A stretch of 64,000 bases of DNA from positions 373,669-437,668 of the IMG/VR virus record IMGVR_UViG_3300017917_001342, one strand, 5' to 3'. The position numbers were made by a program, and so were the translations under genes. This DNA is from a virus. This document shows, piece after piece, positions 1-25,026 of this stretch (position 1 is its first letter; every line of letters begins with the position of its first letter). The notes under the pieces were generated by a model, which ran no database searches, was not told where the DNA came from, and worked only from the letters and a program-made list of their open reading frames with translations.

Positions 1-156
1 TCCTTTATACCAAGTGGTTTCTTGGTTGTTTATTGCTATGCCGCCTGCAACAAATATCACATCGTCTTTATTAATTACAGAAGTTGCACATCTACACAAA
101 CCATGTACTGCACTTTCTTTTACTTCGGTATTTTTATTAATCCAAAAATAATGCAT
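1..156 (-). CDS. Unknown protein, 5' part only (gene runs off the window start)
   Basis: An open frame of 52 codons starts at ATG 156 and continues past base 1 without a stop. The start lies inside the end of the oxygenase gene at 137-907 (20-base overlap), the same tight coupling seen throughout this operon. The visible peptide begins MHYFWINKNTEV and contains VIFVAGGIAINN, a hydrophobic strand followed by small residues. I do not recognise the family. It shows that the enzyme operon continues beyond this window. Confidence 0.55.
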   Translation of the reverse strand, partial: MHYFWINKNTEVKESAVHGLCRCATSVINKDDVIFVAGGIAINNQETTWYKG

Positions 157-907
157 TAAATTTAGGATCCTCAAAGTTTGCTAATACTAGTATGTGGTAA
201 CGTGCATCGCCTGCTGTATTATTTACAGCATGGTTATGTTGTGTGTTTATTATCCATGCTTCATTAAAACCATAATGTTGAACATGCAATGTTTTATCCA
301 TGTATACTAACATAGATGCATGTTCAGATGTAACCAATGGTATATGTAAGTATGCATGTGTGTATTTAGGTTCGTAATAATTGTGGCTGTGCCAATTGAT
401 TCGCTGATTGTTATCAACTCTAGATATCAATACCCTATCGCACATTTCCCATGTAACAAACTGTTTTACAATGCTTACAATGTATGGAACTTTGTGATAC
501 AGGTCAGTTTTAACAAGATGTTCCGGTGGCACTCGCCCGTCTACAATTAAATCTTGTTTACCAATGATTTCCATATAGTCTAGCGTTTCGCCAAAACCAA
601 AATTACTGTCTTCTACAAAATTTCTTAAAAATTTTGCACACCAATAGGTACTAATACCAGCGCCTCTACGTCCTTTTACATCGTTGTTGTATCCATGCCA
701 CGGTGTTGATTCAACAATGCTTAATTCTTGTTTAATGAGATCTTGATTAAAATCTAAGTTGTCTGCAACTTTATAGTGCGGCACGTAGAGTAATTTTTTA
801 GCAACAGGTGATTCTGCACGGTCTGATGCACAGCGTGGACTACATGTGGGATCAAATGCAGGTGCATTTTCAATGTCTAACAAGTTTTTGTGCAAATTCA
901 AGGACAC
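137..907 (-). CDS. Aspartyl/asparaginyl beta-hydroxylase-like Fe(II)/2-oxoglutarate oxygenase
   Basis: 256 residues. The C-terminal half has a double-stranded beta-helix oxygenase pattern: WHSH at 172-175 (candidate iron ligands), a strand-rich stretch, then HNHAVNN around 224-230 and DARYHIL at 234-240, the His...Arg pair expected to bind iron and 2-oxoglutarate in the Asp/Asn hydroxylase family. The N-terminal 130 residues are unassigned. The start is GTG 907, supported by GGAG seven bases upstream; it overlaps the preceding oxygenase gene by 38 bases. Substrate unknown; family hydroxylates peptide or small-molecule carbons. Part of the minus-strand tailoring operon. Confident of the fold, not of the substrate. 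Confidence 0.7.
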   Translation of the reverse strand: MSLNLHKNLLDIENAPAFDPTCSPRCASDRAESPVAKKLLYVPHYKVADNLDFNQDLIKQELSIVESTPWHGYNNDVKGRRGAGISTYWCAKFLRNFVEDSNFGFGETLDYMEIIGKQDLIVDGRVPPEHLVKTDLYHKVPYIVSIVKQFVTWEMCDRVLISRVDNNQRINWHSHNYYEPKYTHAYLHIPLVTSEHASMLVYMDKTLHVQHYGFNEAWIINTQHNHAVNNTAGDARYHILVLANFEDPKFNALFLD

Positions 908-1439
908 CGAGTTTCTCCAAATAAGGGTTTTCTAAATTAGGTAATTCATTCGCCGAATTAAAAATCATGTGTATTCTTGGGCTATGATCACCATTGACAA
1001 AATTGTGCAGTTCATGTGTATTTGTCCAATACACTTTACCCAATGGCATTCTAGCAATGTATGCTAAATCTGGAAATACCATGTATGCCATAAGAGAATT
1101 TGTTACAACTGGTATATGATATCTAGTATACAGATCAACATGTGTGCTGTAACATGCACGTTTGTCTAACCACATAAATCTGGCACTAGCTACAGGAAAA
1201 TCCAAACTGGTTAGTATTTCTTTTATGTAAGTGCCTTCTAATTCTGGATGGAAGTTAACACATTGTTCTTCTCGTCTGGCTTTACCGTAGTGATCTACGT
1301 CACTGTGCCAAGATACATCAGTCGAATACTGCAAACATATTTGTGTGTTTTCCCATCCAACACGTTCTATGATATCCAATGATTCTGCTACAAATCTATC
1401 CGAATCAATGTCGGCAATTTCTTTGAATATGTTATTCAT
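870..1439 (-). CDS. Small Asp/Asn hydroxylase-like oxygenase, tandem copy 1
   Basis: 189 residues. Iron-ligand candidates are His100 and Asp102 (STHVD) and His145 in THELHNF, with Arg155 in SPRIHMIF as the likely 2-oxoglutarate anchor; this order fits the cupin-type Asp/Asn beta-hydroxylases. It is clearly paralogous to the next gene (1436-1984): both share CY(S/T)THVD, YTRYHIPV and YWTNTHELHNFVNG. Its ATG overlaps the neighbour's stop by four bases, implying translational coupling. A tandem duplication that kept the whole iron/cofactor site suggests two related hydroxylation steps or two substrates. Substrate unknown. Confidence 0.75.
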   Translation of the reverse strand: MNNIFKEIADIDSDRFVAESLDIIERVGWENTQICLQYSTDVSWHSDVDHYGKARREEQCVNFHPELEGTYIKEILTSLDFPVASARFMWLDKRACYSTHVDLYTRYHIPVVTNSLMAYMVFPDLAYIARMPLGKVYWTNTHELHNFVNGDHSPRIHMIFNSANELPNLENPYLEKLGVLEFAQKLVRH

Positions 1440-1984
1440 TTGTACAGATACTCGTTGTCTAAATTCTTAGGTTCGTTTGCGTTGTTGAAAACAATGTGTA
1501 TTCGATCTTCGAATGTACCATTGACAAAGTTATGAAGTTCATGTGTATTTGTCCAATACAGCTTACCCGGATACATTCGTGCAGTTATGTCTTTATCAGG
1601 AAAAATCATAAATGTTTGTAATGGTTTAGTAATTACAGGTATGTGATATCTAGTGTAGTAGTCCACATGCGTTGTGTAGCAGGTTTTTGCTGGCAGCTTC
1701 ATTATTCTTGTATGTGCCACTGGAAAATCCAAGCTTTCCAAATATGTTTTAATGTATGTACCATCTAATGCAGAATGCCATTTAGTGTAGGTATATTCTT
1801 CGGAACTTATATGATGTTCCATGTTTGGTATACCGTCGTGCCAACTGTTTTCTGTACTGTACTGCAATGCAATTTGATTGCTGTGATATGAAGTGAGTTT
1901 TAATATTTCACGCAGTTCACCTAAAATTAAATCAACATCAACATCTGATCGCAACTCTTTAAACACATTTTCATTGCTATTCAT
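1436..1984 (-). CDS. Small Asp/Asn hydroxylase-like oxygenase, tandem copy 2
   Basis: 182 residues, paralogue of the 870-1439 protein. Candidate iron ligands are His106/Asp108 (TTHVD) and His151 (THELHNF), followed by Arg161 (EDRIHIV). The regions around the active site are nearly identical to copy 1, while the first 90 residues have diverged more. ATGA overlaps join it to the genes on both sides (1436-1439 and 1981-1984). Predicted cytoplasmic Fe(II)/2-oxoglutarate-dependent hydroxylase; target unknown. Confidence 0.75.
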   Translation of the reverse strand: MNSNENVFKELRSDVDVDLILGELREILKLTSYHSNQIALQYSTENSWHDGIPNMEHHISSEEYTYTKWHSALDGTYIKTYLESLDFPVAHTRIMKLPAKTCYTTHVDYYTRYHIPVITKPLQTFMIFPDKDITARMYPGKLYWTNTHELHNFVNGTFEDRIHIVFNNANEPKNLDNEYLYK

Positions 1985-2616
1985 AATCTACCAAATCCCC
2001 AAAATCTTTCTTCACACCACCAACATTTTCCACAATGCCCCATTCCCGGGTCATCCCATTCATGGTTGATCCATTCACAACTTCTTGTAACAGTAAACAG
2101 GTCATCCATTAGGTTGTACTGTTTATATATAGCACATAAATCTTGTTTATCTAAATTTGTCCACGGCATATACCAATTGCCTTGTTTAGGTTGCCGTATT
2201 ACTGTTGGATCGCGTTCGTGGTTTTCTAATGTTTCTAATGTGAATTTTTCAATTACATCAAATGGAGGATTTTTTGTTACACCGGTGTAAACCGTTGATA
2301 CAATGTTGTTATCAAGAAATTCCATTGGTACTAGAAATAAATTCTGTTTTGTTTGCGCAGTGACATATGAAATGTGATGCGTTAAATTGTAATTCTTAGT
2401 TAACTCAGTGCATCTACTAATAACATTAACAGCAGCATGTGTATTTCTAATCAGTTTTTCTTGACTGGCTACAGAAAAAACATGCAGTGGTTGATCCGAA
2501 TATTTTAACAGAAAATACAGCATCAGTGCGCTGTCTGCACCTCCACTCACACACACTCCCAGGTTACCAGGATATACGTTAAATTCCACATTGTTTGTTA
2601 TAGAATATGTTTTCAT
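1981..2616 (-). CDS. QueC-like PP-loop ATPase with C-terminal zinc motif (copy A)
   Basis: 211 residues. The ATP-pyrophosphatase PP-loop is SGGADS at 24-29. The C-terminus has Cys180, Cys195, Cys198 and Cys201 (HCGKCWWCEERF), the C...CGxCxxCxxR zinc arrangement of QueC, the 7-cyano-7-deazaguanine synthase. QueC adenylates a carboxylate and converts it to an amide and then a nitrile. It is paralogous to the 4290-5012 protein with the same cysteine spacing. No folE, queD, queE or DNA-inserting transglycosylase is visible nearby, so the substrate may not be a deazaguanine. I infer an ATP-dependent carboxylate-activating enzyme acting with the neighbouring radical SAM protein (ATGA overlaps on both sides). 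Confidence 0.75.
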   Translation of the reverse strand: MKTYSITNNVEFNVYPGNLGVCVSGGADSALMLYFLLKYSDQPLHVFSVASQEKLIRNTHAAVNVISRCTELTKNYNLTHHISYVTAQTKQNLFLVPMEFLDNNIVSTVYTGVTKNPPFDVIEKFTLETLENHERDPTVIRQPKQGNWYMPWTNLDKQDLCAIYKQYNLMDDLFTVTRSCEWINHEWDDPGMGHCGKCWWCEERFWGFGRL

Positions 2617-3752
2617 TTCGGTTTATATTTTGGTATTTTACTGTCAGCACTGCTAACACATGCATTAGTGATGCAAGGCATCGGAGTATCAAATAGTTTA
2701 AATCCAGTTTCTATGTACCCTAGAGGTTTATCGCAACAACTGTAGCTGCGTTTAATTGCACCATCTGGTTCTCTTATTATAATGCTTCTGTAACCACTTT
2801 CACAATTCCAGCCGTTAAACTGATTGAAATTAAAGGCATTAAATCGTTCAGCCTGATCCATATACCATTTTTTACCTGTGTTGTCTTCAAATTCAACTTG
2901 CATTAATTGTGGTACTGATGCATCGTCACCGTTTGATACACTCATAGTCTGCATACTGATTTTTGGCTTAGGCCTATTGACTTTGCTTTTGACCGCAGTG
3001 AAATCTCGTTGCGGCATACCATTGTGTAATACTGCTAACTGCTCTGTAGTATACCCTTCCACTATCCGGCTTGCTGTAGGGTCGCTTTGAGCCTTCAGCG
3101 TGACGTTTATTCCTCGACTCAAGAAGTATTCTGTTTCTTTATACAGTACATCAAACCATTCTGGTACCATAACAGTGTTGATGGTTACCTGAACATCGTT
3201 TTCTTGTAGATAAACCAGTTTGTCTGCAAACTTCTCAGTATGCCCAACTAAGTCACCTTGTTTTATACCTTGTTCGCGATGCCAACTGGCAGTGACACTT
3301 ACTCTGTGCAAATTGCGTGTTACATCTACATATTTTTCGAACCAATTGAGACTTTGGCTTATGTTACTGGTCATATGCACACTTTGATAATTGCAATTAT
3401 CAGTATCGGTTGCGTAGTGATTGAGAAGTTTCAAGTAGTCAGGATATACTGTAGGTTCGCCGCCGCTAAAACTAAAATGAAAACTGTTAAAACCACGTTC
3501 TCTACTTTGTCGTTTTATTTCATCAATTGTCATACGATTTAATTCATATGGACGATAATCTTTTACATCACTTCGTGCATATGGCCAACAGTAACTACAG
3601 CGATAGTTGCAATAACGCCCTAACAGCCAGCTTACACAAAATATATCTCTATAGAGAAGGGTTCGTTGACCGAATTTAACTATGTCATTAAACGGTATTT
3701 TAGTGAAATCGTATTGACTCCATTCTACCTTATTCTTTATACCATCTGTCAT
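2613..3752 (-). CDS. Radical SAM enzyme with C-terminal auxiliary cysteines
   Basis: 379 residues. The [4Fe-4S] cluster motif CxxxCxxC is at Cys48, Cys52, Cys55 (CNYRCSYC), followed by the SAM-contacting FSGGEPT at 95-101. The C-terminal 80 residues contain further cysteines (GWNCESG, YSCCDK, PCITNACV), suggesting a SPASM/twitch-like auxiliary iron-sulfur cluster typical of enzymes that modify peptides or carry out difficult oxidations. Start ATG 3752 overlaps the SDR gene by 23 bases; the end overlaps the PP-loop gene by four. Reaction unknown. Confidence 0.8.
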   Translation of the reverse strand: MTDGIKNKVEWSQYDFTKIPFNDIVKFGQRTLLYRDIFCVSWLLGRYCNYRCSYCWPYARSDVKDYRPYELNRMTIDEIKRQSRERGFNSFHFSFSGGEPTVYPDYLKLLNHYATDTDNCNYQSVHMTSNISQSLNWFEKYVDVTRNLHRVSVTASWHREQGIKQGDLVGHTEKFADKLVYLQENDVQVTINTVMVPEWFDVLYKETEYFLSRGINVTLKAQSDPTASRIVEGYTTEQLAVLHNGMPQRDFTAVKSKVNRPKPKISMQTMSVSNGDDASVPQLMQVEFEDNTGKKWYMDQAERFNAFNFNQFNGWNCESGYRSIIIREPDGAIKRSYSCCDKPLGYIETGFKLFDTPMPCITNACVSSADSKIPKYKPK

Positions 3753-4293
3753 CTTGCATCGGATCTATACTAATTTCATTAATGTTAATATGCTTCGGTT
3801 GATCTATTAACCATTTAATATAATGTGCAGCAGTGATAATGTCTAGACATTTACGATCCGGATGCTTAGATTGATTGTTTGTCAGTGTACCAAAACTGAC
3901 ATAACTGATTTTAGGATAAGTTGACCAAACACTGCCTATTGATAGTGTATTACAATAATCCCTAAGTGCTTTCTTTTCTGCATTGTATAACCAAGGCTTG
4001 CTGTTGTTAACTTTATCAGTTGTGCTACCAATACAGATAATGTGCATCGTTGGATTTTTTTCAACTGCAACTTTAAATACTGCATCGAGTAATACTGTTT
4101 GATTGAATTTCCATAGTGCTGCACAATTTACAAACACATCATGCCCTGCTGCAATCAATGCAGCACGTTCTTGGTCGTCCTTTTTAGCTAGATCAAATCC
4201 AGATGACCTACTTAAAAATGTTGCATTGGGAAATATACTTGCTATTTCTTTTGCCAAGCCGTAGTTGGGATTACCTGTAATACATACTCTCAT
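3730..4293 (-). CDS. Short-chain dehydrogenase/reductase (SDR) family oxidoreductase
   Basis: 187 residues, short for the family (usually about 250). The N-terminal TG at residues 6-7 with a following glycine fits a Rossmann NAD(P) site; VNCAAL at 55-60 matches the SDR NAG-type segment; Ser90 and Tyr103-x3-Lys107 (YNAEK) give the catalytic Ser/Tyr/Lys set in correct spacing. It probably oxidises or reduces a carbonyl/alcohol on the pathway intermediate. Coupled by a four-base overlap to the upstream PP-loop gene. Confidence 0.72.
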   Translation of the reverse strand: MRVCITGNPNYGLAKEIASIFPNATFLSRSSGFDLAKKDDQERAALIAAGHDVFVNCAALWKFNQTVLLDAVFKVAVEKNPTMHIICIGSTTDKVNNSKPWLYNAEKKALRDYCNTLSIGSVWSTYPKISYVSFGTLTNNQSKHPDRKCLDIITAAHYIKWLIDQPKHININEISIDPMQDDRWYKE

Positions 4294-5012
4294 AATTTAC
4301 CAAATGCATATAAACGTTCTAAGCAAAAGTAACAGACACCGCAATGTGTCGGTGTGTCGGTATACATTTGCATATGATTTTCGCAAGACCAAGTAATGGG
4401 ATAAAGGTCCTCAAGTAAGTTGTAATAGTTGTACAGTTTAAAAACTGTTCGTTTATCAGAACGTGCAAAAGGCATGTAATAGGTTACATTGCCTAATTTT
4501 CCCACAGTTGAATACAACGGATAAGTTCTATTAACATCTCTTTCTGACAGCCATTTTTTGCATTCAACTTTATCATATTTGAAGTTGTCAGATTCAACCA
4601 TTGCTTGAAGTTCATCTATCGGACAATTAATTGACAACCCGGTATAATTAGAATCAATTGAATGATTTTCTATAACCTCATGTTCCAAGTTATCTTGACC
4701 TATTGTGTATTCTTGTGAATTTGATTCAACTGAATTGTCGATGCGATGATTTAAATTACACGATTCGTAATGTTTAGCCGGATATTTTCCAGTTAATTTT
4801 CCAACTAACTCAATAACACCTTTGGCTTTGTTTACAGAATGTGGTCGTAATGCAGTATTCAATGTATAAGGGTATATGTTAACATCTGTGTAGTCTTTAA
4901 AAAAATTGCACAATGCATAATAAATGATACTGCTGTCTGGTCCCCCAGATAATCTTACTGCGATGTTTTTATCCAAAGGATCTACAGATATAACGTCGTC
5001 AATCATCGTCAT
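4290..5012 (-). CDS. QueC-like PP-loop ATPase with C-terminal zinc motif (copy B)
   Basis: 240 residues. PP-loop SGGPDS at 22-27. The C-terminus TWSCE...THCGVCYFCLERL supplies Cys210, Cys224, Cys227 and Cys230, very close to the QueC zinc site and to copy A at 1981-2616. An insert of about 60 residues (roughly 85-145) is absent from copy A. Start could be ATG 5012 or ATG 5006; both overlap the end of the cobalamin radical SAM gene. Predicted ATP-dependent activation of a carboxylate or related group; whether it forms amide, nitrile or a conjugate to a protein cannot be read from sequence. Confidence 0.75.
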   Translation of the reverse strand: MTMIDDVISVDPLDKNIAVRLSGGPDSSIIYYALCNFFKDYTDVNIYPYTLNTALRPHSVNKAKGVIELVGKLTGKYPAKHYESCNLNHRIDNSVESNSQEYTIGQDNLEHEVIENHSIDSNYTGLSINCPIDELQAMVESDNFKYDKVECKKWLSERDVNRTYPLYSTVGKLGNVTYYMPFARSDKRTVFKLYNYYNLLEDLYPITWSCENHMQMYTDTPTHCGVCYFCLERLYAFGKL

Positions 5013-6492
5013 TCTTTACACCTAATACGTTATCATACCTGCGTAATTCTTTATCTATTATCCAACCAGAATAATCTGTGTTATTAAGTTTCATAATGAA
5101 TTCGTTTATTTCTTTAAATCGTCTTGCTCTGACTTGTAGAGTATTACCTTTATAATCCCAGTCAAAAATGTCAGTATATGAAGTAAGTTCATCTTTAACC
5201 AATTCCCAAATAGGATGATCTTCTGACAACATCAACGTATTACCGAAACTCAAATACAATAATTTATTGCCCCATTCGTTGGTGTTATGAGCATATCCAG
5301 TATCATACAAGTGCTGTATGGTGTTTAATGTATGTTGATGGTCTTCTTCAGTTTCAGTTGGATAACCTACTATCATCAACAGTGTGTGTTGTATTTTGTA
5401 TTTTTGTAACATTTCAAAACACCACCACATGTCTTCATCAGTGAATTTTTTACCCATGTGATAACGAACATGTTGACTAAATGATTCTATACCTATATCT
5501 AATTCAACACACCCGCTGTCTACCATTAATTGATAATCAGCTTCCGGTGACTGTGCTTTTGATCTAACTATCCATTGACTAGACCATTTAAAATCCGGAT
5601 CTGTTTTTCTATATTCTTTTAATTCGTGCAGTAATTCTCTAAATGCTTTCATACTGCCGTTGATTAAACTGTCTGTAAATTTAAAGAAGTGTCTATTATA
5701 CTTTTTACGTATTGCTATAATTTCTTCTGCTATATGCTTGCCAGATCTAAATCTATACTCTGGCCATATTTGATAAACATTGCAGAATGTGCAGCGTTTT
5801 ACACAACCACGACTACCAGTGATATACACAGGTCGATCATAGTCCATAATATGGTATTCATCCCAATTGATATCATCGTAATTTGGTATTTTAACAGAAT
5901 TTAAATCCAATACTTGAACAGGTGTAAGAGTATCAATACCTTTGTATGTAGTATTACCCTTTAGCAATTCAATAATTGCCTGTTCACCGTCACCACAGAT
6001 ATAATGGTCCATAAGACCAATTTCTTTAAACTTTTGAATGCCCCATTCTATTTGTGCACCGCCCCACACAATTTTAGTGTGCGGCAAATATTGTCTAATC
6101 AGCTGACTAAGTTTTACTGCAACTGATTGGCTGTATATTGATAGAATACTCAATCCTATCCATTTTGGATTCTTACGTTTAAAGAACCCTATCCATTCTA
6201 GAAAAACAGATTCGTTTTCTTTGTAAAATTCTTGAAATTCTCTGTTTAGTTCGAGAGAATCATTTTCTATTTCGTTGTGATGAGTTCTAAACAATGCATC
6301 ATTATTGAAAAAATAATGTTCGTGTTTATTGATCTTTTTTAGTGCATTAAAAAGCTTTATATTTAAATCTACAACCTCACATGTAAAACCTTCATCCATT
6401 AAATGAGATTTTAACAATGCAGGCCCAACAGTCGGTGCATCTGGATTTATTTTAGGTATTATACAGATAATAATATCTAGTTGATTATCCAT
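4999..6492 (-). CDS. Cobalamin-binding-type radical SAM enzyme
   Basis: 497 residues in three parts. Residues 5-180 resemble a B12-binding Rossmann domain (GPALLKSHL, WIGLSILSIYSQS, IVWGGAQIEW, ICGDGE), followed by the radical SAM cluster motif at Cys230, Cys234, Cys237 (GCVKRCTFC), and a C-terminal part resembling BchE/P-methylase-type radical SAM proteins (DIGIES, VGYPTET). Family members methylate unactivated carbon or phosphorus, or rearrange rings, using SAM and cobalamin. The DxHxxG cobalamin motif is not seen, as in many radical SAM members. It overlaps the neighbours at both ends (14 and 8 bases). If active, it needs host cobalamin. Confidence 0.78.
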   Translation of the reverse strand: MDNQLDIIICIIPKINPDAPTVGPALLKSHLMDEGFTCEVVDLNIKLFNALKKINKHEHYFFNNDALFRTHHNEIENDSLELNREFQEFYKENESVFLEWIGFFKRKNPKWIGLSILSIYSQSVAVKLSQLIRQYLPHTKIVWGGAQIEWGIQKFKEIGLMDHYICGDGEQAIIELLKGNTTYKGIDTLTPVQVLDLNSVKIPNYDDINWDEYHIMDYDRPVYITGSRGCVKRCTFCNVYQIWPEYRFRSGKHIAEEIIAIRKKYNRHFFKFTDSLINGSMKAFRELLHELKEYRKTDPDFKWSSQWIVRSKAQSPEADYQLMVDSGCVELDIGIESFSQHVRYHMGKKFTDEDMWWCFEMLQKYKIQHTLLMIVGYPTETEEDHQHTLNTIQHLYDTGYAHNTNEWGNKLLYLSFGNTLMLSEDHPIWELVKDELTSYTDIFDWDYKGNTLQVRARRFKEINEFIMKLNNTDYSGWIIDKELRRYDNVLGVKNDDD

Positions 6493-7216
6493 TAATTAAA
6501 TTCCTGTCTACTAATAGATCTTCAACTGTACCTTCAAAGTTTATATGCAAACCAATTTTCCATTTTCCAACTAGCTTACCAGTTGAATGCAGATTATTAC
6601 TGTTGAACAATATGAGATTTCCGGGTTTAAACTCGTATGCTACACCAGTTAAACCCTTAAAATATGAGTGTTTATGATTATAATACTCTAAATAATTTGT
6701 GTAAAAATCCAAATCTATATCATCCGTTGTTTTATCATATACTCGCGGATCATTGAATGGTATTAGATTTGTTTTCTTGTTAAAATCAAAATCATAGTTT
6801 GCAATATTATCTGCTCTGTCCCCGTACCATGTTTGTCCAAACCCATTGTCTACCCACTGATCAAACACTACAAAATGCTGTGTAGCCTGCGGCTCATGCA
6901 GATATATAGGTATCAAGCAGTTGATTAGTTGATATGGTTCTGCAGAATCAACATGTGTCGTATAGAGATTGGAATGTTTATAGATGTTACCACCTTGTCC
7001 TTTGTTACACACAAAGTATTTTGAAAGATATGGTTCTAGTACATCTCTTAGATGCGTCCAAGGCGCATTGATTTTTACCACATCTGGATTATTCGGTTTT
7101 TTAACATGTAATTCTGGATGTGTATCAAAAAAGTCTTTTATATAACTGCATACTTCAAGTGGTATGACATTTTCATACGCTAAATGACGCACTGTCATTT
7201 CATTCTCCATTAACAT
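6485..7216 (-). CDS. Fe(II)/2-oxoglutarate-dependent oxygenase-like protein
   Basis: 243 residues. His88-x-Asp90 (TTHVDS) and a distal His210 (NNLHSTGK) form the expected two-His-one-carboxylate iron triad of dioxygenases, within strands FKPGNLILFNS. No clear Arg follows the distal His; Lys220 (GKWKIGLH) might take its place. Unlike the small tandem oxygenases upstream, it has a 100-residue insert between the two halves of the site. Start may be ATG 7216 or ATG 7210; only five bases separate it from the preceding radical SAM gene. Substrate unknown. Confidence 0.65.
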   Translation of the reverse strand: MLMENEMTVRHLAYENVIPLEVCSYIKDFFDTHPELHVKKPNNPDVVKINAPWTHLRDVLEPYLSKYFVCNKGQGGNIYKHSNLYTTHVDSAEPYQLINCLIPIYLHEPQATQHFVVFDQWVDNGFGQTWYGDRADNIANYDFDFNKKTNLIPFNDPRVYDKTTDDIDLDFYTNYLEYYNHKHSYFKGLTGVAYEFKPGNLILFNSNNLHSTGKLVGKWKIGLHINFEGTVEDLLVDRNLING

Positions 7217-7221
7217 ATATT

Positions 7222-8367
7222 TTAATTATTCCAAGCTTTTAAAAAATTGCACAGTTCTAAATTGTAATCTTCTAATCTAGTATTATAATACCCATCCAGT
7301 TTTTTAGTGTAATATAAAAAATCTGACCAATGTTTTTCATTGTAGCTGTTTACATTCAAAAATGTAGATATAAGTCTATGTGCAGTTTCATTGTGTTTGT
7401 TTTTATCTAAGACCCATTGCACATAATCTTCTGGTGCATACAACAGTGATAGATGATAAGGATACCTAACAAAATCAACAGACATATGATATCCATGTTG
7501 TTCCATTAATACGTTTACTGTATTAGCAAGTGTGTTTGCATTTAACAGTGATACCACAGTGTGGAATGATGTCTGTACATTTTGAAAAATAGTTTCGTAC
7601 ATTTTAGTGTTGTTAAAAGTGTCTATATAAGAACTACCGTAGCGTTGATAATCATTAGATAGATCAAATGCATCTAGACTCACGTGTATGTCTAGCATTT
7701 TAAATTTATTGAGTTTTTCTATGACTGCATATGATGGTATAACTGTGCCATTGGTTGCAATTTCTATAGTTATCTGTGTTGGATCGGAGCGTTCTATTAG
7801 ATAGTCAATGAACTTTACAAAGTTGGGAGTCATAAAAGGTTCGCCGCCTAAAATTTTAACAAGTTCTAAATTGGATAGATCAGTGTTGTTAAATTTGCGA
7901 AAATTAGGTTCCAACTTTTTAAAAACTTCTTCACCTAGAAACTCGTCTCTGTTCATCAATCGAGTGCTAAATTTACTGTCGCACATTTTACATTGTAAAT
8001 TACAGATATTGTCTATAGACATTTCAATGTATCGCAGTTTTTCAAACTGTGTAGTGCAATTGTTTTTATCTACGTGAGAAAATCTACCATTGATATATGT
8101 TCTAAGAGACGTTGCTGTACCGTCACCTTCTTGATCATAACATTTAGTACATCCAGGTGATTTTATACCCATTAACATATTCTGCCTTAAGGCAACCATG
8201 TTGGGAGTTTCCATTACAGCTAACCCCTGTTGTTCTAACTGGTCGAGTGTAATGTCTATGCGTGTTTCATCCTTTGGGTTTTGAAATCTACAACAGGGTT
8301 TTAAGCTGTTATCTGGTCGTACACATTGATGTATCCACGGCAATACGCACCATGTATCATTGTTCAT
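7222..8367 (-). CDS. Twitch-domain radical SAM protein (1)
   Basis: 381 residues. An N-terminal cysteine block (Cys7 in CVLPW, Cys15, Cys25-Cys26, then Cys73 and Cys76 in CTKC) precedes the radical SAM cluster motif Cys122-x3-Cys126-x2-Cys129 (CNLQCKMC) and LGGEPF at 173-178. Having the auxiliary-cluster cysteines in front of the SAM barrel is the 'twitch' arrangement found in a family common in marine phages. It shares this design with the 12509-13855 gene but is not a close copy. Function unproven; auxiliary clusters usually bind substrate or pass electrons. Confidence 0.8.
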   Translation of the reverse strand: MNNDTWCVLPWIHQCVRPDNSLKPCCRFQNPKDETRIDITLDQLEQQGLAVMETPNMVALRQNMLMGIKSPGCTKCYDQEGDGTATSLRTYINGRFSHVDKNNCTTQFEKLRYIEMSIDNICNLQCKMCDSKFSTRLMNRDEFLGEEVFKKLEPNFRKFNNTDLSNLELVKILGGEPFMTPNFVKFIDYLIERSDPTQITIEIATNGTVIPSYAVIEKLNKFKMLDIHVSLDAFDLSNDYQRYGSSYIDTFNNTKMYETIFQNVQTSFHTVVSLLNANTLANTVNVLMEQHGYHMSVDFVRYPYHLSLLYAPEDYVQWVLDKNKHNETAHRLISTFLNVNSYNEKHWSDFLYYTKKLDGYYNTRLEDYNLELCNFLKAWNN

Positions 8368-9497
8368 TTTGGTATCTCATCTCTATCAATATCAATAGAA
8401 CCGAATCCAATAATAGACTTTTTGAATTCTCTAGACACATCTGGTAGTTTGTTGTCTGTTAAAAACCAAGACGAACTGTGCCACCTGGCAGTGTCAAACA
8501 CCATCATTGTGCCTAGCTGCCATTCGTATACGCTGTGTGTTTTTAAACAAGCATATTCTTTGTAATACTGTGTGTTTGGTGGATTGTATTGCATTACATC
8601 AGAATCATACCACCAATCACGTTCATCGTCTGGTCTATATTTGAAAACTTCGTCGTTGTCCATGTATCGCATTTCACCTTTGCGATAAATCAACTTACGT
8701 GGCACAGTGCTGACACGGTCATAGTTTACAGTATATGGCTGATGACACGACCACATTAACGGTATAATAACACCCATAACAATATGGCAATCATGTGTTA
8801 TCAAATTATTATCTACTACTCGCCATGTGTTTGGTAATGAAACATAATCGGTGTGCAACCCCGCAGGCTCACCAGATTTAAAATATTCAAAATTCCAATC
8901 TAACTTAACGTTAAGGTAATTGTTTATATACGTAGAGAGATAGGTTTTAGTATCAGCCGGTGTAGACACAAATCTATTGTGTCCCTTAGATCCACTTATT
9001 TTAACAGTTTGTGATTCTAACAAACTGTTAGATTCTAAATTATATTTGTAAATGTCCAAATCAATTTTATTACTGCCATAGCGTATTACGTTGTTTTTTA
9101 GTGCCACGCACTGTTTAACTTCATCTAATTTTATAAAATTGAGATTTTTTACAGCTTGTTTGATTACAGATGCATAAATGGTATGACGTATATTCCTAGC
9201 AATTAACACACCAGAATCCGACAGATACTGTCTAATGTGTTTATACAATGCATGCCAGTTGACATGTTCTTCTGTGACACCAATTGTTATAATATCATAT
9301 TTGAATTCGCTGTTAAATGACAATGCCGTTGGTGCATAAATCTCACTGTAGGCCCATTCTGGAAATTGTGTTTTTGTAAAATCTATTAGCTGTCCATCTG
9401 CTTCACCTATTTCCAAAATACGTCCATGTTGGCCAAATGTAGACATTTGTTGTGCCACTAATTGCATTTCTTCAGGATATATTAGACTTTTGCCCAT
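8364..9497 (-). CDS. Methyltransferase-like / Fe(II)-2OG oxygenase fusion
   Basis: 377 residues with two domains. Residues 1-145 are a class I methyltransferase-like Rossmann domain (RILEIGEADG at 26-35) paralogous to the separate methyltransferase at 10420-10956. Residues about 175-377 look like an Fe(II)/2-oxoglutarate oxygenase: His215-x-Asp217 (GLHTDY) and distal His340 (ARWHSSSW). The glycine-rich SAM loop is poor (one full GxxG only), so methyl transfer may be weak or lost. Overlaps both neighbours (four bases with the downstream radical SAM gene, one base with the PLP gene). The fusion suggests that the two reactions act on one intermediate. Confidence 0.68.
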   Translation of the reverse strand: MGKSLIYPEEMQLVAQQMSTFGQHGRILEIGEADGQLIDFTKTQFPEWAYSEIYAPTALSFNSEFKYDIITIGVTEEHVNWHALYKHIRQYLSDSGVLIARNIRHTIYASVIKQAVKNLNFIKLDEVKQCVALKNNVIRYGSNKIDLDIYKYNLESNSLLESQTVKISGSKGHNRFVSTPADTKTYLSTYINNYLNVKLDWNFEYFKSGEPAGLHTDYVSLPNTWRVVDNNLITHDCHIVMGVIIPLMWSCHQPYTVNYDRVSTVPRKLIYRKGEMRYMDNDEVFKYRPDDERDWWYDSDVMQYNPPNTQYYKEYACLKTHSVYEWQLGTMMVFDTARWHSSSWFLTDNKLPDVSREFKKSIIGFGSIDIDRDEIPK

Positions 9498-10423
9498 TAT
9501 TTTCGTTCTTCTTTTTCTATAGAATTAAGACCAGCGTCGGTACCTCTTGCATCAAACACGCCTTCAATGAGATATCGTAAAGGAGTGCGTATGCCGTATT
9601 GCACAGTATTATGACCTTGAGTCTTAAAGCCGACATGTATACTGTTGCCTTCTGTTAATCCAAAATCATTGCAGACTTTGCTGTACAACTCACTATAGTT
9701 AGACCACCAATAATCTACACCAAAATGATTCATCATTTCTACACCTATCCACATGTCACTGACATTGCAATAGTCAAAATCATTCATAATAGCTATTGGA
9801 CCGTTTACTCGTTCCCTGGTATATCTGATACCAATACGCTGACTACCCATTCCCAGTGCTTTGCTGAGACTAACACTAACACTTGCGATAGCAGGATGAG
9901 ACACATCAAATTCAAAATTTCTGCATTGTCCAAACCATGCACCATCAATATGAACTGGAATATTTCTATGCTCACAGTGATCTAAAAGTAGATCGAAATC
10001 ATCCAAATGTCCTGTTGTAATGCAGCTTGGATAGCTTGCAACAAATACATCACCTGGTACTAATTCAGTGAAATGTTCTATCTGCTTAACGGTAAAATCT
10101 GTTAAGCGTCTATGATACTTGTATTCGCCTTGCATAGTGGCTATACGACCGTTATGCAGCATGTGTAGTTCATCTAGTTGATGCGTAGTACCTAATATTG
10201 CGTCACGGCGTGTAAACGTGTCTAATCCGCTATAATGAACCAGTTTGTGTGCATTGATCCACTTGTCAATACTAGCAATGAAATGTCTGGTGTATTCGTG
10301 TGGATCTTTTGGATATGTAGACATATCAAGACCGGCCCGAAATTTAGTAAACTTGCTAAGATACATCGGGCGCTGTCTCTTAGTACCTAGCATTTCAAAT
10401 GTAATGTCGTCATAAGTCATCAT
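9497..10423 (-). CDS. PLP-dependent fold-type I enzyme (aminotransferase/decarboxylase-like)
   Basis: 308 residues. The PLP-site signature is present: HIDGAW with Asp160 (pairs with the pyridine nitrogen) and SLSKALG with Lys188 (predicted Schiff base), at the usual spacing of about 28 residues. The protein is shorter than the usual 380-450 residues, mainly at the C-terminal small domain. It could be an aminotransferase, decarboxylase or a sulfur-handling enzyme; specificity cannot be assigned. Two adjacent ATGs (10423 and 10420) start it; it is coupled to the methyltransferase upstream by four bases. Confidence 0.72.
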   Translation of the reverse strand: MMTYDDITFEMLGTKRQRPMYLSKFTKFRAGLDMSTYPKDPHEYTRHFIASIDKWINAHKLVHYSGLDTFTRRDAILGTTHQLDELHMLHNGRIATMQGEYKYHRRLTDFTVKQIEHFTELVPGDVFVASYPSCITTGHLDDFDLLLDHCEHRNIPVHIDGAWFGQCRNFEFDVSHPAIASVSVSLSKALGMGSQRIGIRYTRERVNGPIAIMNDFDYCNVSDMWIGVEMMNHFGVDYWWSNYSELYSKVCNDFGLTEGNSIHVGFKTQGHNTVQYGIRTPLRYLIEGVFDARGTDAGLNSIEKEERK

Positions 10424-10956
10424 TTGTTTCCATATGCATAGGACCCATTAACAGATTCTATACTTTTAAAATTTAATGCATTCACAGCTTGATTTATATA
10501 TTCACCGTAGATTTTGTGTTTTAAATTTCTAGCGATAATAACACCGTCATTTTTTAACATAGTTGCTGCATGTTGATATACTGTAACCCAATTGATTTTT
10601 TTACTAACAAGTCCCATACTGATAACATCAAATTTTTGATCAGTGTTCCAATTTTCAAAATATGCTTCTTGTGCAATTGCAAATGGACAATTTTTTGTAA
10701 ACATATCCTTAGTAATCACATCGCTTAGGTTATTAGGAGCAAAATAATCTGCGGCCCAATCTATTTGTAATCTGACTTTTTCCTGTTCCCAGGGATCAAC
10801 TGCAACGTATGTCCATAGTGGGAATCGTTTATGTAAAAAATCAAACAGTCTGCCAGCAGCCGCACCAACTTCTAATATAGATCCTACTTTGCCTTTCGAC
10901 TCCATTTGTCTAGCAACTAATTCCATTTCAGCTACGGAGATCCAACCATCTACCAT
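10420..10956 (-). CDS. Class I SAM-dependent methyltransferase-like protein
   Basis: 178 residues from ATG 10956 (GGA lies a few bases upstream; a TTG at 10974 would add six residues). ILEVGAAAGRLFDF at 27-40 is the SAM-binding motif I, and VISMGL and VIIARN mark later strands. It aligns end to end with the N-terminal domain of the fusion protein at 8364-9497 (shared E-M-x-LVA-x-QM opening, LE(V/I)G, LI/LFDF, LIARN). It has the fuller glycine loop of the two, so it is the better candidate for an active methyltransferase. Target unknown. Confidence 0.7.
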   Translation of the reverse strand: MVDGWISVAEMELVARQMESKGKVGSILEVGAAAGRLFDFLHKRFPLWTYVAVDPWEQEKVRLQIDWAADYFAPNNLSDVITKDMFTKNCPFAIAQEAYFENWNTDQKFDVISMGLVSKKINWVTVYQHAATMLKNDGVIIARNLKHKIYGEYINQAVNALNFKSIESVNGSYAYGNK

Positions 10957-10957
10957 G

Positions 10958-11854
10958 TTATATCCACTTTTCAACTATTGCATCTAACTTACACGGGCAT
11001 GCAGAATAATCACACACAATTGGATCAGTTGGTAATGTATATTGACCTGTTAAAATATTACCTAAACTGCCACCGACATTTTTAGTACAACGCTTTATAT
11101 TGCCGTTTGGTTCAACCATTAAACGCTTAATACCAGCAGTACAAGTATATCCCTTAAATTGATGAAGTCCTTGATCAAGTACATTCATGAACTTTATCTT
11201 TTTACCATCGAAATGCAAATTCCTAGGTATTTCCCAATCTATACCAAACGGTTTCATTTTATTATGATGATTAGTTTGTATCCATTGTCGTTGTTCATCT
11301 GTATATTCAAAATAAGAAGTGCCGTTAATACTGGTTCGAGTAAATTTAGGGGTACACTCTATATCAAGAGTTGTTAGTCTATCATAGAGTTTTTTAGCAC
11401 GTTCAAAATTGTCAGGTACTACCATAAGTGGTACACTTAAACTGGCTTTGTGTTGCATTATATCAGCTACTGCATAAAAATGATCGTCGTCTGCAAATTC
11501 ATGATGCCAGCTTAAAAACACAAATGCTCGCTGTGTCTTAAATTGAGTCCAATAGTTTATTGTGCGAGATGCGTTGGTAGCGTATTCTACAAAAACATTA
11601 TCGTCACTAATTGTATCCACAAATTCTTGGAACCTAGGCCATACTGTAGGTTCGCCGCCCAAAACTTCTATATACAAATAACGATTTCGTTGTTTAAGTT
11701 CAGTTATTAATTTAATATAAGGAGTCCAATCGTCTGGCCATCTGTAAGATCCCGATCTATGATAATCGTTGCAATATGAACAACTGTAATTACATACGTT
11801 ATGTATGAACAGTGTTAAAACACAGCAATTTAAATTTTCATTTGTGATATGCAT
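10958..11854 (-). CDS. Radical SAM enzyme with SPASM-like C-terminus
   Basis: 298 residues. CxxxCxxC cluster motif at Cys21, Cys25, Cys28 (CNYSCSYC), LGGEPT at 65-70, and C-terminal cysteines (YTCTAG, KRCTKN, VCDYSACPC) after a NGNIKRC segment, typical of SPASM-type auxiliary cluster domains. It resembles the 2613-3752 radical SAM protein in the core (CNYxCSYC, GGEPTV(Y/W)P, SWHHE/SWHRE), suggesting an ancient paralogue pair. One base separates it from the methyltransferase start downstream. Reaction unknown. Confidence 0.8.
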   Translation of the reverse strand: MHITNENLNCCVLTLFIHNVCNYSCSYCNDYHRSGSYRWPDDWTPYIKLITELKQRNRYLYIEVLGGEPTVWPRFQEFVDTISDDNVFVEYATNASRTINYWTQFKTQRAFVFLSWHHEFADDDHFYAVADIMQHKASLSVPLMVVPDNFERAKKLYDRLTTLDIECTPKFTRTSINGTSYFEYTDEQRQWIQTNHHNKMKPFGIDWEIPRNLHFDGKKIKFMNVLDQGLHQFKGYTCTAGIKRLMVEPNGNIKRCTKNVGGSLGNILTGQYTLPTDPIVCDYSACPCKLDAIVEKWI

Positions 11855-11856
11855 GT

Positions 11857-12519
11857 TTATTTTATATGAACAAGATCGTTGTCAACCCACATAGATTTAT
11901 GTCTATACATTGCCGTGTTGATTTTAACATCGTAGTTGTGGGGTATGGTTTCAATAGGGTATCCGATTCCTAGAGCAGTTACAACTCTATCATCAATTAA
12001 TTCTTTGTCGTATTCTTCTTTTAATAATCTGTACAATATAGATCTAAAATTGTCATCAAAACATGTACAAAACCCAGTACGATACCCAAGTTGATTAGCT
12101 GCTAATGCCAGCATGCCCATGTGTATCCCAACTGACGTATGCATATCTTCTGATATAAATCTGTACGAAGTTTTTTCTCTGTTTTCGTTATTAAAATTTG
12201 TAGCAACTGTTTCTTCATAATGCTGGGATTTGTATTCACTGTACGGTAATGCAATTACCAATAACGGTGCAGACATTTGTGCATTATGCGGAGAATGATA
12301 CCCGTGATCTCTCGACGACATGTACATATCATGTATCAGTTCTCTATTTTCAATAAACAGTGTTTTATGCCAAACCACACCTTGCTTCCTAGGTGCAAAT
12401 TCTATCAGTGTTTTAAATAACTCAACATCATCAGGTTTAACCGACTTATCGTCAAAATTACGTTGACATAATCTTGCATAATTAATAGAAGATACTAATA
12501 GATTTTTATCAATTATCAT
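11857..12519 (-). CDS. Nitroreductase-like FMN oxidoreductase
   Basis: 220 residues from ATG 12519 (GTG 12531 would add four). An N-terminal RLCQRNFDD (basic/aromatic FMN-contact region), a central SVGIHMGMLALAANQLGYRTG helix-turn segment and the late ALGIGYP motif are characteristic of the nitroreductase fold. Such enzymes reduce or dehydrogenate substrates, for example oxidising azolines to azoles in peptide natural products. The start overlaps the end of the upstream radical SAM gene by 11 bases. The exact redox role in this operon is not known. Confidence 0.7.
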   Translation of the reverse strand: MIIDKNLLVSSINYARLCQRNFDDKSVKPDDVELFKTLIEFAPRKQGVVWHKTLFIENRELIHDMYMSSRDHGYHSPHNAQMSAPLLVIALPYSEYKSQHYEETVATNFNNENREKTSYRFISEDMHTSVGIHMGMLALAANQLGYRTGFCTCFDDNFRSILYRLLKEEYDKELIDDRVVTALGIGYPIETIPHNYDVKINTAMYRHKSMWVDNDLVHIK

Positions 12520-13855
12520 TAAACAATTCACGATATTGCGGTATTATATCTAATACATTTTGGTTTCTAATTTTGTCTAGATCTTTAGTAATTTTAACAA
12601 ATTGCGGTAACCATTCAGCAGAATAATCTTCGCTTAACATAAACTTTTCTACACTATCTAAGTGTTTGACAAAGTGCTTTTTAACATGTGTCGAAAAGTT
12701 AGTTGCAACTATCCAGGCTTTATATTGCTTGTAATGTTCTACTACCTGCTGCTTGATGTCAGCTGGTAATACTTTAATGTTATAGTATTTTGGGCTATGA
12801 CACATATGATAAGAAACAATAGGTCTATATGATTCAACTGGATTGAATTTTAACAGATTGCTTTCTGTTAATTTCCATTTCATGAATTCAGGAAAATGGA
12901 AAACATTAAACGGTGTTATAGTAAATGCAAACCAGCACTTGAGATTAATATCGGTTCTTGCATCTATCTTTTTTAGATTTTCATAGACATGAGTCCATTT
13001 TGCCGGAGCCCGCTGATAATCAAATATTTCGTTGCAGGCATCTATACTTGCACCTATGCGTATTTCTTTAAAATGCTTCCACAGGTCTAATATTTTATCT
13101 GTAACGTTAGTGAGATTTGTGTTGTATTCAATTTGAATCTCACTTGCTCTACCGTTGGCTACCAGTCGTTCTAACGATTCTATATGCTCATCAATTATAA
13201 GAGGCTCACCACCTACAATGTAAAGCTTCTTGGCATTTTTAGTATGCTGCTCAAAATTACTCCAATACATGTTGGAATTCTTAAACCAATCATATTGATC
13301 AGTTGTCCATCGACCTTTTTCATTTTTTACTAGTTGTACTCGTTCATGAGTGTCTTTGTACGATGTAGATCCCCATAGCTTTACAAAGTCATCATACCAT
13401 TGATGACTATCTGTAGGACCACACATTCTACATTTCAAATTGCAGAAGTTACCGTAGCGTATATCAAAATATTCAATATCTTGTTTAGCAGTATCTATAG
13501 TACCGTCAGCTTCAGTAATAGATGCAGCATACTCTTTTGTTATCTCCCAATCGTTAAGTTCCATCTGTCGTCGAGATAATACGCCATTTTTTTCTTCTTG
13601 TCTGCAACGTTCGCATTCAGAATGCCACTCGTTGTTAAGCATAGTTGATCTGACGTCTTTTAGTAATGCAGCATTTCTAGCATCGTTGAAATCATCTTTG
13701 CTTGCATTGTAAGCAGTGCCATCTGATTTACGAATTATACCTTTATTAGGACTGTATGAGTTTGCATTACAACAAACTCTAAGATCGCCATTGTTACGTA
13801 TGTTTATGCTGTTCCATGGTAATGGACAAAATGTGCTTTTAGATTCTTCAGACAC
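12509..13855 (-). CDS. Twitch-domain radical SAM protein (2), first gene of the operon
   Basis: 448 residues. N-terminal CPLPW (Cys10), Cys28-Cys29 and Cys81/Cys84 (CERC) precede the cluster motif Cys138-x3-Cys142-x2-Cys145 (CNLKCRMC) and VGGEPL at 214-219. Same domain order as the 7222-8367 protein. The start is GTG 13855 with AAGG about nine bases upstream; no in-frame ATG lies near. It is the first gene after the terminator that ends gp18 transcription, so it probably sits just behind the operon promoter. Function unknown; auxiliary cluster cysteines are intact. Confidence 0.8.
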   Translation of the reverse strand: MSEESKSTFCPLPWNSINIRNNGDLRVCCNANSYSPNKGIIRKSDGTAYNASKDDFNDARNAALLKDVRSTMLNNEWHSECERCRQEEKNGVLSRRQMELNDWEITKEYAASITEADGTIDTAKQDIEYFDIRYGNFCNLKCRMCGPTDSHQWYDDFVKLWGSTSYKDTHERVQLVKNEKGRWTTDQYDWFKNSNMYWSNFEQHTKNAKKLYIVGGEPLIIDEHIESLERLVANGRASEIQIEYNTNLTNVTDKILDLWKHFKEIRIGASIDACNEIFDYQRAPAKWTHVYENLKKIDARTDINLKCWFAFTITPFNVFHFPEFMKWKLTESNLLKFNPVESYRPIVSYHMCHSPKYYNIKVLPADIKQQVVEHYKQYKAWIVATNFSTHVKKHFVKHLDSVEKFMLSEDYSAEWLPQFVKITKDLDKIRNQNVLDIIPQYRELFNDN

Positions 13856-13928: not shown

Positions 13929-13929
13929 T

Positions 13930-13956
13930 AAAAAACCGGGACAAGCCCGGTTTTTT
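13930..13956. terminator. Bidirectional intrinsic terminator
   Basis: AAAAAACCGGG (13930-13940), loop ACAAG, CCCGGTTTTTT (13946-13956). The A and T tracts on either side make it work on both strands. It lies just past the gp18 stop codon and separates the sheath gene from the enzyme operon. Confidence 0.9.
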
Positions 13957-13960
13957 AATC

Positions 13961-23366: not shown

Positions 23367-25016
23367 ATGGAATATTGGTATACAGAACAATTACGAAATT
23401 ATAGATTGCAATTCATACGTGCATTTAGCAATTTCTATTATAAAACTGGAAAAAATGCAGATGGTACCGAAGCATTGGTACGAGTTCCGTGTCGATACGG
23501 CGACCCGACACGTATTGCCGAAATGGTAGTCAGAGGCAATAGTGAAAACAAAGTTCTCACTGTGCCATTTCTGACTTGTTACATCGGCGGAATGAGCATG
23601 AGTGCTAATCGTAGACAAGCACCTCAACTAACTGAACTTATTCAAGTAGATGAACGTGAATATGACGAAAACAATCAGCAGTATCTAAACACGCCGGGTA
23701 ACCGTTATACAATAGAACGTTACATGCCAGTACCGTATGTAATGACAATGCTTGTAGATCTATGGTCTAATAACGAAAGTGTTAAAGAACAAATTATCGA
23801 ACAGATAATGGTACTTTATAACCCTGCTATTGAAATACAGACCAGTAACAACCCATTAGACTGGACTGTGTTAAGTTATATCGAAATGCAAGACAACATC
23901 ACATGGACCAGTCGCAGTATACCAATCGGAACTGAAAATCCAATTGATGTGTTGACTATGACTTTCAATTTCCCAATATGGATTAACCCACCTGCAAAAG
24001 TCAAAAGACAACAGATCATTGAAAATATTATTGCAACTATCATTGATGCAAATCCAAAAGATCCTGCAATCGTAGAATGGAGCGAATACGAATTTCTAAA
24101 TAGAAAAACCTGGTCGCCCGGCGACTACAGTATCGAGTTATCATGGCAAGGTAATAATACCTATGCATTGAGCTTAACCAGTCGCGCAGGGGATCCAAAA
24201 GATTACAGCAATCAGGCCACTGTTACATTTTCATCAGTTAACCCAATATTGACACCAGGAACCAGTTTTAAATTTAATGACATTGTAATTAACGTAACAA
24301 CCAGCAATGTATCAACGTTCGTAGATCAAACCGCAGCACAAATGGCGGGTACTAGCTACAACATACAATTGCAAAATTACAATCAGATCATGTTTATCAA
24401 CAACACCGGTGGTGACAATAAGTTTGAAAATGTAAACGGTACACCTTTATCTCAAATGGGTCTATTGTCTGGTACATATCCAGGTGGTGATCTAGCTTGG
24501 TGGAGGTTGTTACTAACCTATGGTACACTACAGCCGTATTCGCAGTACGGTATCAACGCAAGTCAGCTAGCAGTTAAACTGACACTTGATAACACTACCG
24601 ACCAAGCTATAGGTTGGTTAGACTATCATCCAACTAATCAAAATCTCTTATTGTGGCATGTAGATCCAGAAAGTTTACCTAAAACTACGTTAACACCAAT
24701 CAATGCTATAGTAAATCCGTTGACAAAAGGACCGAACGCAGGCCTACCAGAAACAAACGTCGGCCAGCGATATCTGTTAACAGAAAAGCCAGCAGAATCC
24801 AGTGTTGCTTGGGATATTGTAAATGCTGAAGCGGATGATATTATAGAGTTCGACGGTACTGTGTGGTCAGTATCGTTTAATTCAGCAAATGCTAAAGACA
24901 AAGTTTATTTTGTTACAAATCTATTCACAGGAAAACTGTTAATATGGGATGGCACACAATGGAGCGAGTATATACTGCCAGCGTACCGTCCTGCATACTG
25001 GCGACTTGTTCTATAA
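23367..25016 (+). CDS. 15: Tail sheath completion/stabiliser protein gp15
   Basis: 549 residues; T4 gp15 has 272. The first 230 residues match gp15 of marine T4-like phages: YWYTEQLRNYRLQFIRAFSNF opening pattern, VPCRYGDPTRIAEMVV, RYTIERYMPVPYVMTMLVD, and TSRSIPIGTENPIDVLTMTF. gp15 forms the hexameric ring capping the tail. The C-terminal 300 residues are extra beta-rich sequence, ending in two short modules (LLIWDGTQW near the end) that recur in other tail proteins of this phage. Starts two bases from the promoter-proximal AGAGG; late promoter at 23341. Confidence 0.88.
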   Translation: MEYWYTEQLRNYRLQFIRAFSNFYYKTGKNADGTEALVRVPCRYGDPTRIAEMVVRGNSENKVLTVPFLTCYIGGMSMSANRRQAPQLTELIQVDEREYDENNQQYLNTPGNRYTIERYMPVPYVMTMLVDLWSNNESVKEQIIEQIMVLYNPAIEIQTSNNPLDWTVLSYIEMQDNITWTSRSIPIGTENPIDVLTMTFNFPIWINPPAKVKRQQIIENIIATIIDANPKDPAIVEWSEYEFLNRKTWSPGDYSIELSWQGNNTYALSLTSRAGDPKDYSNQATVTFSSVNPILTPGTSFKFNDIVINVTTSNVSTFVDQTAAQMAGTSYNIQLQNYNQIMFINNTGGDNKFENVNGTPLSQMGLLSGTYPGGDLAWWRLLLTYGTLQPYSQYGINASQLAVKLTLDNTTDQAIGWLDYHPTNQNLLLWHVDPESLPKTTLTPINAIVNPLTKGPNAGLPETNVGQRYLLTEKPAESSVAWDIVNAEADDIIEFDGTVWSVSFNSANAKDKVYFVTNLFTGKLLIWDGTQWSEYILPAYRPAYWRLVL

Positions 25017-25026
25017 ATATGTCATC

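Follow-up and report, generated by a model that had tools for sequence, protein, structure and literature searches.

We describe two divergent QueC-like proteins, QueC-A and QueC-B, encoded in a 64,000-nt stretch of phage DNA (the window; positions 373,669 to 437,668 of the 518,643-bp IMG/VR virus record IMGVR_UViG_3300017917_001342). Both proteins keep the ATP and zinc sites of QueC and have lost the signature for 7-carboxy-7-deazaguanine (CDG). Their genes share an operon and are inherited together, and in a relative a family member and a radical SAM domain form a single protein. With slightly better than even confidence, we propose that QueC-A and QueC-B are a pair of tailoring enzymes that activate carboxylates within a biosynthetic cassette of the phage, with a substrate other than CDG; the reactions, the substrate and the separate roles of the two proteins given below are predictions from sequence. 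The two genes are:

1981..2616, minus strand: QueC-B, a 211-aa PP-loop protein with SGGADS and the zinc-type cysteines Cys180/195/198/201
4290..5012, minus strand: QueC-A, a 240-aa PP-loop protein with SGGPDS and Cys210/224/227/230

These open reading frames (ORFs), their PP-loops and their four-Cys sites had been reported in a preliminary description of the window and were confirmed in its sequence. The range 1981-5012 also takes in a radical SAM gene (2613-3752) and a gene for a protein like the short-chain dehydrogenases/reductases (SDR-like; 3730-4293). The zinc region reads TRSCE...HCGKCWWCEERFWGFG in QueC-B and TWSCE...HCGVCYFCLERLYAFG in QueC-A, and where canonical QueC has YPDC the two proteins have YTGVTKNPP and YTGLSINCP, respectively. 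Pfam family QueC (PF06508, cut-off 22) is matched weakly by QueC-A (24.1 bits, residues 172-239, mainly the zinc end), and QueC-B stays under the cut-off with 19 bits; both match PHROG 1550, named 'QueC-like queuosine biosynthesis' (4.9e-7 and 9.8e-10). The SGGxDS PP-loop and the C-terminal CxxCxxC zinc site of the PF06508 superfamily are present in both proteins, and these features are not due to chance, because the PP-loop residues and the four cysteines are invariant across 46 homologues. The whole 519-kb record holds exactly two members of the family, QueC-A and QueC-B.

Motifs and distribution of the viral family

Scanning IMG/VR with single sequences gave no match for QueC-A and two contigs for QueC-B, so a 4-sequence alignment was needed to collect the family. 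It retrieved 47 viral loci beyond the window (some of them redundant) and three loci from bacterial metagenome-assembled genomes (MAGs); the family alignment contains 46 homologues, and counts of copies and of neighbours refer to 34 representative loci. No match was found by tblastn for either protein among the INPHARED phages, or for QueC-B among the PLSDB plasmids. Residues S22, G24, D26, S27, K187, Y194, S209, E232 and the four cysteines are invariant in the 46 homologues, and the family motifs are SGGADS, GxTxNPP, P[FW]xNxDKK and TRSCE...HCGxCWWCxERxWAFG. These sequences make up a widespread viral family of paired QueC-like proteins with a signature of its own, which we did not find described in the literature.

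QueC-A and QueC-B are separate in the maximum-likelihood tree: the A clade has six rows (100/98), and B falls inside a set of 19 (98/97). Wherever an A gene has complete flanks (in the window, L006, L025/26/27/35, L028/29 and L036), a B gene lies within ∼5 kb of it; the A gene of L018 is in a locus cut at the contig end, and B is also found without A. At least two family copies are present in 11 of the 34 loci, and different second copies are seen in L032, L046, L047, L057, L060 and L062, so pairing has recurred. At 10 loci (L034, L038, L040, L044, L045, L051-L053, L055 and L069), the family gene is adjoined by genes for a conserved ∼480-aa protein (no Pfam match for the one member scanned) and for GNAT-like and TauD-like proteins (by eye).

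Comparison with canonical QueC

QueC-A and QueC-B share with canonical QueC the SGGxDS ATP loop, the C-terminal four-Cys zinc site, a length of ∼210-240 aa and a conserved lysine in P(x)nK, but they differ in the spacing after the first cysteine (x13/x14 instead of x8) and in the substrate motifs. Escherichia coli QueC is inactive when mutated at Y35 (Y35A, in YxQxHxxE), R99 (R99A, in VPxRN), Y131 (Y131A, in YPDC) or Y189 (Y189A, in the zinc site) (PMC13329287). YxQxHxxE, present in E. coli QueC, occurs in none of the 46 homologues of A and B; nor does YxDC, the aligned region reading GxTxNPP. VPxRN, present in both E. coli QueC and the QueC of Vibrio phage 2.275.O, is found in two of the 46 (with a loose regular expression), neither of them QueC-A or QueC-B, and the CY of the canonical zinc site is CE in both. 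Of the two controls, E. coli QueC has the complete set of motifs, whereas two of them, one being YPDC, are absent from the QueC of Vibrio phage 2.275.O; no motif therefore decides the question by itself.

Profile comparisons point in the same direction. The canonical Vibrio phage 2.275.O QueC matches the solved QueC 3BL5 at 2e-23, whereas the profile of the family reaches 3BL5 at 0.05 and 2PG3 at 0.3; it matches Cap9 (9NTO) at 2e-4, over both ends. Its top matches in the PDB are a TtuA-type thiolase (4e-6) and ThiI (1e-4), the former limited to the generic PP-loop end (profile positions 15-93). When aligned with E. coli QueC by hhalign, the family is covered at the zinc end only, and PF06508 is matched by 40 of the 46 members (E ≤ 0.01), again mainly at the zinc end. 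Synthesis of preQ0 by QueC-A or QueC-B is unlikely, because the CDG motifs are absent and the family profile reaches solved QueC at 0.05 against 2e-23 for the phage QueC. Additional weak PF06508 matches in two other family-carrying records (G010 and G013) were rejected as spare QueCs: by eye these ORFs resemble TilS or NadE, and the family profile gives them much lower scores than it gives family members.

Phage genes labelled 'QueC' are routinely taken as a sign of queuosine synthesis or deazaguanine DNA modification. For this broad viral branch such an assignment is unsupported: PHROG 1550 is a broad phage family, and the motif test gives no support to the queuosine-synthesis part of its name. 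The motif set of the family offers a means to tell canonical QueC from the viral branch.

The phage cassette and its predicted chemistry

QueC-A and QueC-B belong to 16 co-directional genes on the minus strand (137-13855), separated by gaps of -38 to +5 bp. Five are radical SAM genes (one B12-binding, two with an NF033640 twitch domain above cut-off) and three are aspartyl/asparaginyl hydroxylase-like; there are also methyltransferase genes and weakly matched pyridoxal phosphate (PLP) enzyme-like and nitroreductase-like genes. The operon runs on leftwards into the adjoining locus L002, with sugar-nucleotide and more oxygenase-like genes, and on both sides it is bordered by structural or packaging genes (recognised by eye). 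Its upstream boundary is a terminator-like hairpin. Besides QueC-A and QueC-B, the features are:

137..907, minus strand: aspartyl/asparaginyl hydroxylase-like (Asp_Arg_Hydrox 2.8e-6, over cut-off)
870..1439, minus strand: aspartyl/asparaginyl hydroxylase-like (Asp_Arg_Hydrox 0.0018)
1436..1984, minus strand: aspartyl/asparaginyl hydroxylase-like (Asp_Arg_Hydrox 0.013), with a 4-bp overlap with QueC-B
2613..3752, minus strand: radical SAM enzyme between QueC-A and QueC-B (Pfam Radical_SAM 1.6e-12)
3730..4293, minus strand: short SDR-like protein (weak match) between the radical SAM gene and QueC-A; in L006 no counterpart between A and B
4999..6492, minus strand: B12-binding radical SAM enzyme (Radical_SAM 1e-17, B12-binding 2.7e-9; PhpK-like 2.9e-27, under cut-off), overlapping the QueC-A start
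6485..7216, minus strand: 2-oxoglutarate (2OG) oxygenase-like by eye (no Pfam match; 79% in L006)
7222..8367, minus strand: twitch-domain radical SAM protein (NF033640, 246 bits, cut-off 170)
8364..9497, minus strand: methyltransferase-like N-terminal half (Methyltransf_23 0.0015) and, by eye, oxygenase-like C-terminal half (79% in L006)
9497..10423, minus strand: PLP-enzyme-like (weak matches; 84% in L006, 36% in L036)
10420..10974, minus strand: methyltransferase (Methyltransf_23 1.2e-6)
10958..11854, minus strand: radical SAM protein (Radical_SAM 2.9e-8)
11857..12531, minus strand: nitroreductase-like (Nitroreductase 0.0034, weak, under cut-off)
12509..13855, minus strand: twitch-domain radical SAM protein, first gene of the operon (NF033640, 367 bits, cut-off 170)
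13929..13957, no strand: terminator-like hairpin of 12 pairs, between the operon's first gene and a large structural gene (13961-17995)

A precursor peptide gene in the operon was ruled out, as the genes leave no intergenic room for one.

The link between the family and radical SAM enzymes recurs elsewhere. In the window, A and B flank a radical SAM gene, and its homologues have the same place in L006 (88% identity) and L036 (63%). A 458-aa protein of L062 (10216-11592) consists of a full family member and a radical SAM domain with CPLECPHC, and such fusions are also found in L064 and L065; this radical SAM domain is homologous to stand-alone radical SAM neighbours of the family at many loci. 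The arrangement resembles the couple of QueE and QueC, in which a radical SAM enzyme also adjoins a QueC-type ATPase, but the radical SAM proteins of the cassette are of twitch, B12 or other types rather than QueE, and the QueE of this virus is encoded elsewhere.

We rely on fusion and gene order, not on adjacency counts, which over all loci do not exceed shuffling. Under the reading that we favour, QueC-A and QueC-B, which are inherited together, would be ATP pyrophosphatases of the N-type PP-loop kind, QueC-like but divergent and equipped with four zinc-type cysteines, and would work beside radical SAM, 2OG-type, PLP and methyltransferase enzymes. Each most likely adenylates a carboxylate with ATP, and one of the radical SAM or oxygenase enzymes encoded nearby probably makes or uncovers this carboxylate, in parallel to QueE feeding QueC but on a substrate that would not be CDG. 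Ammonia or an amine would then take up the activated acyl group, yielding an amide, a nitrile or a conjugate. As the two copies are not identical, they may carry out two acylations in succession or form a heteromer, and their product could end up on a nucleotide sugar, on the virion or on another small molecule. The preliminary description had proposed carboxylate activation on another substrate; this proposal fits best and gains partial support from the kept ATP loop and zinc site, the lost CDG motifs, the radical SAM and 2OG-type partners and the fusion. Radical SAM-dense phage operons with a QueC-like protein fused to a radical SAM domain are candidate sources of new carboxylate-activating chemistry, and if the product were a modification of virion or host, the uses of the QueC fold in protein modification, which were found recently, would extend to viruses.

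Several observations weigh against this proposal. Over the 34 loci, 21 of 90 (23.3%) positions next to the family are radical SAM genes against 18.8% when shuffled, a value reached by 626 of 5000 shuffles; a subset of loci chosen post hoc is above shuffling (35 of 5000), and we rejected adjacency as statistical proof, since it is not significant over all loci. Single family members in L031 (420-1094) and L068 (7971-8627) stand alone among DNA-replication genes, and a B-clade-related gene in L033 is ∼3 kb from QueE. Four of the five family records longer than 100 kb (the present record, G000, and G003, G010 and G013) carry QueD, QueE and a DpdA candidate with no full-length canonical QueC, so QueC-A and QueC-B may yet act on CDG; in the fifth, G005, QueE was not found. 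PP-loop enzymes also thiolate, and with a TtuA-type thiolase and ThiI as the top PDB matches, sulfur transfer is possible. By eye, the flanks in L031 and L068, both from T4-like phages, are DNA polymerase-like and RecA/UvsX-like genes.

Sulfur transfer enters an alternative explanation, in which QueC-A and QueC-B belong to another PP-loop type (TtuA/ThiI- or WbpG-like) and use ATP to thiolate or amidate tRNA or nucleotide sugars. Genes of UDP-glucose dehydrogenase and epimerase type in L002 would suit it, as would two Bdellovibrionia MAGs (L023 and L024) in which sulfate-activation genes adjoin the family gene: its neighbours encode adenosine phosphosulfate (APS) kinase and a PAPS_reductase-domain protein, together with a SPASM radical SAM protein (families checked in L023; L024 has the same gene order). 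However, the thiolase match covers the generic PP-loop end, PF06508 matches lie mainly at the zinc end, and no RNA-binding domain is seen; we regard this explanation as distinctly improbable. The Bdellovibrionia loci, with their SPASM radical SAM gene and with no deazaguanine gene found in the part inspected, also count in favour of our main reading; they have a weak sulfotransferase match near the family gene as well. Amidinotransferase-like neighbours in L022, L025 and L028, proposed by eye, were set aside: their only support is a sub-threshold arginine deiminase match in L022.

We also considered whether QueC-A and QueC-B are ligases like Cap9 or QatC that attach CDG or some other acyl group to proteins such as a host defence factor or a virion protein. 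Among solved zinc-type proteins, Cap9 (type IV CBASS; PF06508 cluster 9), likewise a small protein with a PP-loop and a zinc site, is the nearest to the family by profile, and it has the same CE at the first zinc cysteine, in a zinc motif CE(x)6CxxCxxCxD (PMC13329287); CDG is a compound that the phage could in principle produce. QatC (Qat defence; PF06508 cluster 2) shares the QueC fold with a remodelled substrate site and a long first cysteine spacing, and provides a precedent, as a QueC relative thought to modify protein, for replaced CDG-binding residues (PMC13279940). But Cap9 keeps YPDC-, RN- and YxQ-type substrate motifs that the family is missing (Y/FxQ(x)5E is in one of the 46 members), and has a CD-NTase partner; no CD-NTase with a Met-Gly start was seen among the cassette and flanking genes, where genes were inspected without a genome-wide CD-NTase search. 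Only one cassette protein (8364-9497) starts with Met-Gly, and its counterpart in L006 starts with MTKG, so no conserved partner with an N-terminal glycine is seen. QatC, in turn, is ∼400 aa long with N- and C-terminal extensions, compared with 240 and 211 aa here, and its partners QatA, QatB and QatD are not seen among the cassette and flanking genes; QatC matches are marginal (0.014 with PADLOC QatC; 14 bits with NCBIfam QatC, cut-off 280). Protein conjugation of this kind seems to us very unlikely.

Deazaguanine genes elsewhere in the record

The preliminary description saw no FolE, QueD, QueE or DpdA, which is correct for the window but not for the virus: a check of the rest of the genome gave the first three and a candidate for the fourth, and the premise of a missing pathway falls. 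The genes, all outside the window, are:

G000:471408-471932: FolE (4.7e-40; PHROG 9.7e-45)
G000:294682-295095: QueD (PHROG QueD 2.3e-35)
L011:6207-7079: QueE (PHROG QueE 1e-47)
L011:10109-11767: candidate DpdA, 552 aa, with DSGGFQ and LQG motifs like those of tRNA-guanine transglycosylase (TGT), beside FolE

Homologues of the candidate DpdA are found in phages Phosso and PA5oct and in Vibrio phage 2.275.O, all annotated as hypothetical; that of Vibrio phage 2.275.O adjoins annotated 7-deazaguanine genes. In hhalign comparisons the motifs of the candidate are collinear with those of E. coli Tgt and of a phage protein annotated as TGT, at low probability (15 and 36%, respectively), and its profile has no TGT match in the PDB. 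A search of the virus with the Pfam TGT family (PF01702) was negative, which is uninformative because neither the candidate DpdA nor an annotated phage queuosine tRNA-ribosyltransferase scores with PF01702.

Canonical QueC was not found in the 518,643-bp record. As predicted from its genes, the virus is equipped with a route to CDG (FolE, QueD and QueE) but lacks the canonical last step. One explanation is that QueC-A, QueC-B or both replace canonical QueC, converting CDG to 7-amido-7-deazaguanine (ADG) or preQ0, which the candidate DpdA would insert into phage DNA. The presence of the other genes in the same record, the similar gene sets of G003, G010 and G013 and the L033 gene near QueE all favour it. 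But the residues for CDG recognition and other essential residues are absent from QueC-A and QueC-B, whose genes lie ∼90-100 kb away from FolE and QueE in an unrelated operon, and the family also occurs in records without detected QueE (most of these are fragments). Moreover, phages Phosso, PA5oct and ACP17 keep QueE with neither type of QueC, so the module needs no replacement; Mycobacterium phage Bipper is also without QueC (PMC6884629). We consider replacement of canonical QueC unlikely, though worth keeping in mind.

Family and module are separable, as Phosso and PA5oct keep the module without the family, and Vibrio phage 2.275.O has a canonical QueC. The co-occurrence of family and module, counted within family-carrying records (most of them fragments), seems to characterise this group of large phages and not to reflect a dependency. 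The preliminary description held that a full pathway elsewhere in the genome would make this ordinary deazaguanine synthesis. This does not follow, because the module is without canonical QueC, QueC-A and QueC-B are without the needed residues, and related phages keep the module without the family. Least probable in our estimate is a combination in which FolE, QueD and QueE make CDG and the remodelled QueC-like ligase pair, in place of canonical QueC and with its radical SAM partners, transfers CDG, or an acyl group related to it, to a non-DNA acceptor (a protein, sugar or peptide); if true, this would be the viral parallel to conjugation by Cap9, serving counter-defence or the decoration of virions.

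Other genes of the record were seen in passing. It has 22 radical SAM matches, about nine of them in a near-continuous array; the stretches noted are 87-101 kb (L009), 144-151 kb (L010) and 453-457 kb (L004). The left part of the cassette contains a SET-domain protein (L002:19695-20000; Pfam 5.6e-11), and GroEL- and GroES-like genes were recognised by eye in L003 (11594-13521). In the window, a Poly(A) polymerase head-domain protein (24949-25779; Pfam 1.6e-26) is encoded near glycosyltransferase-type genes (26643-28744).

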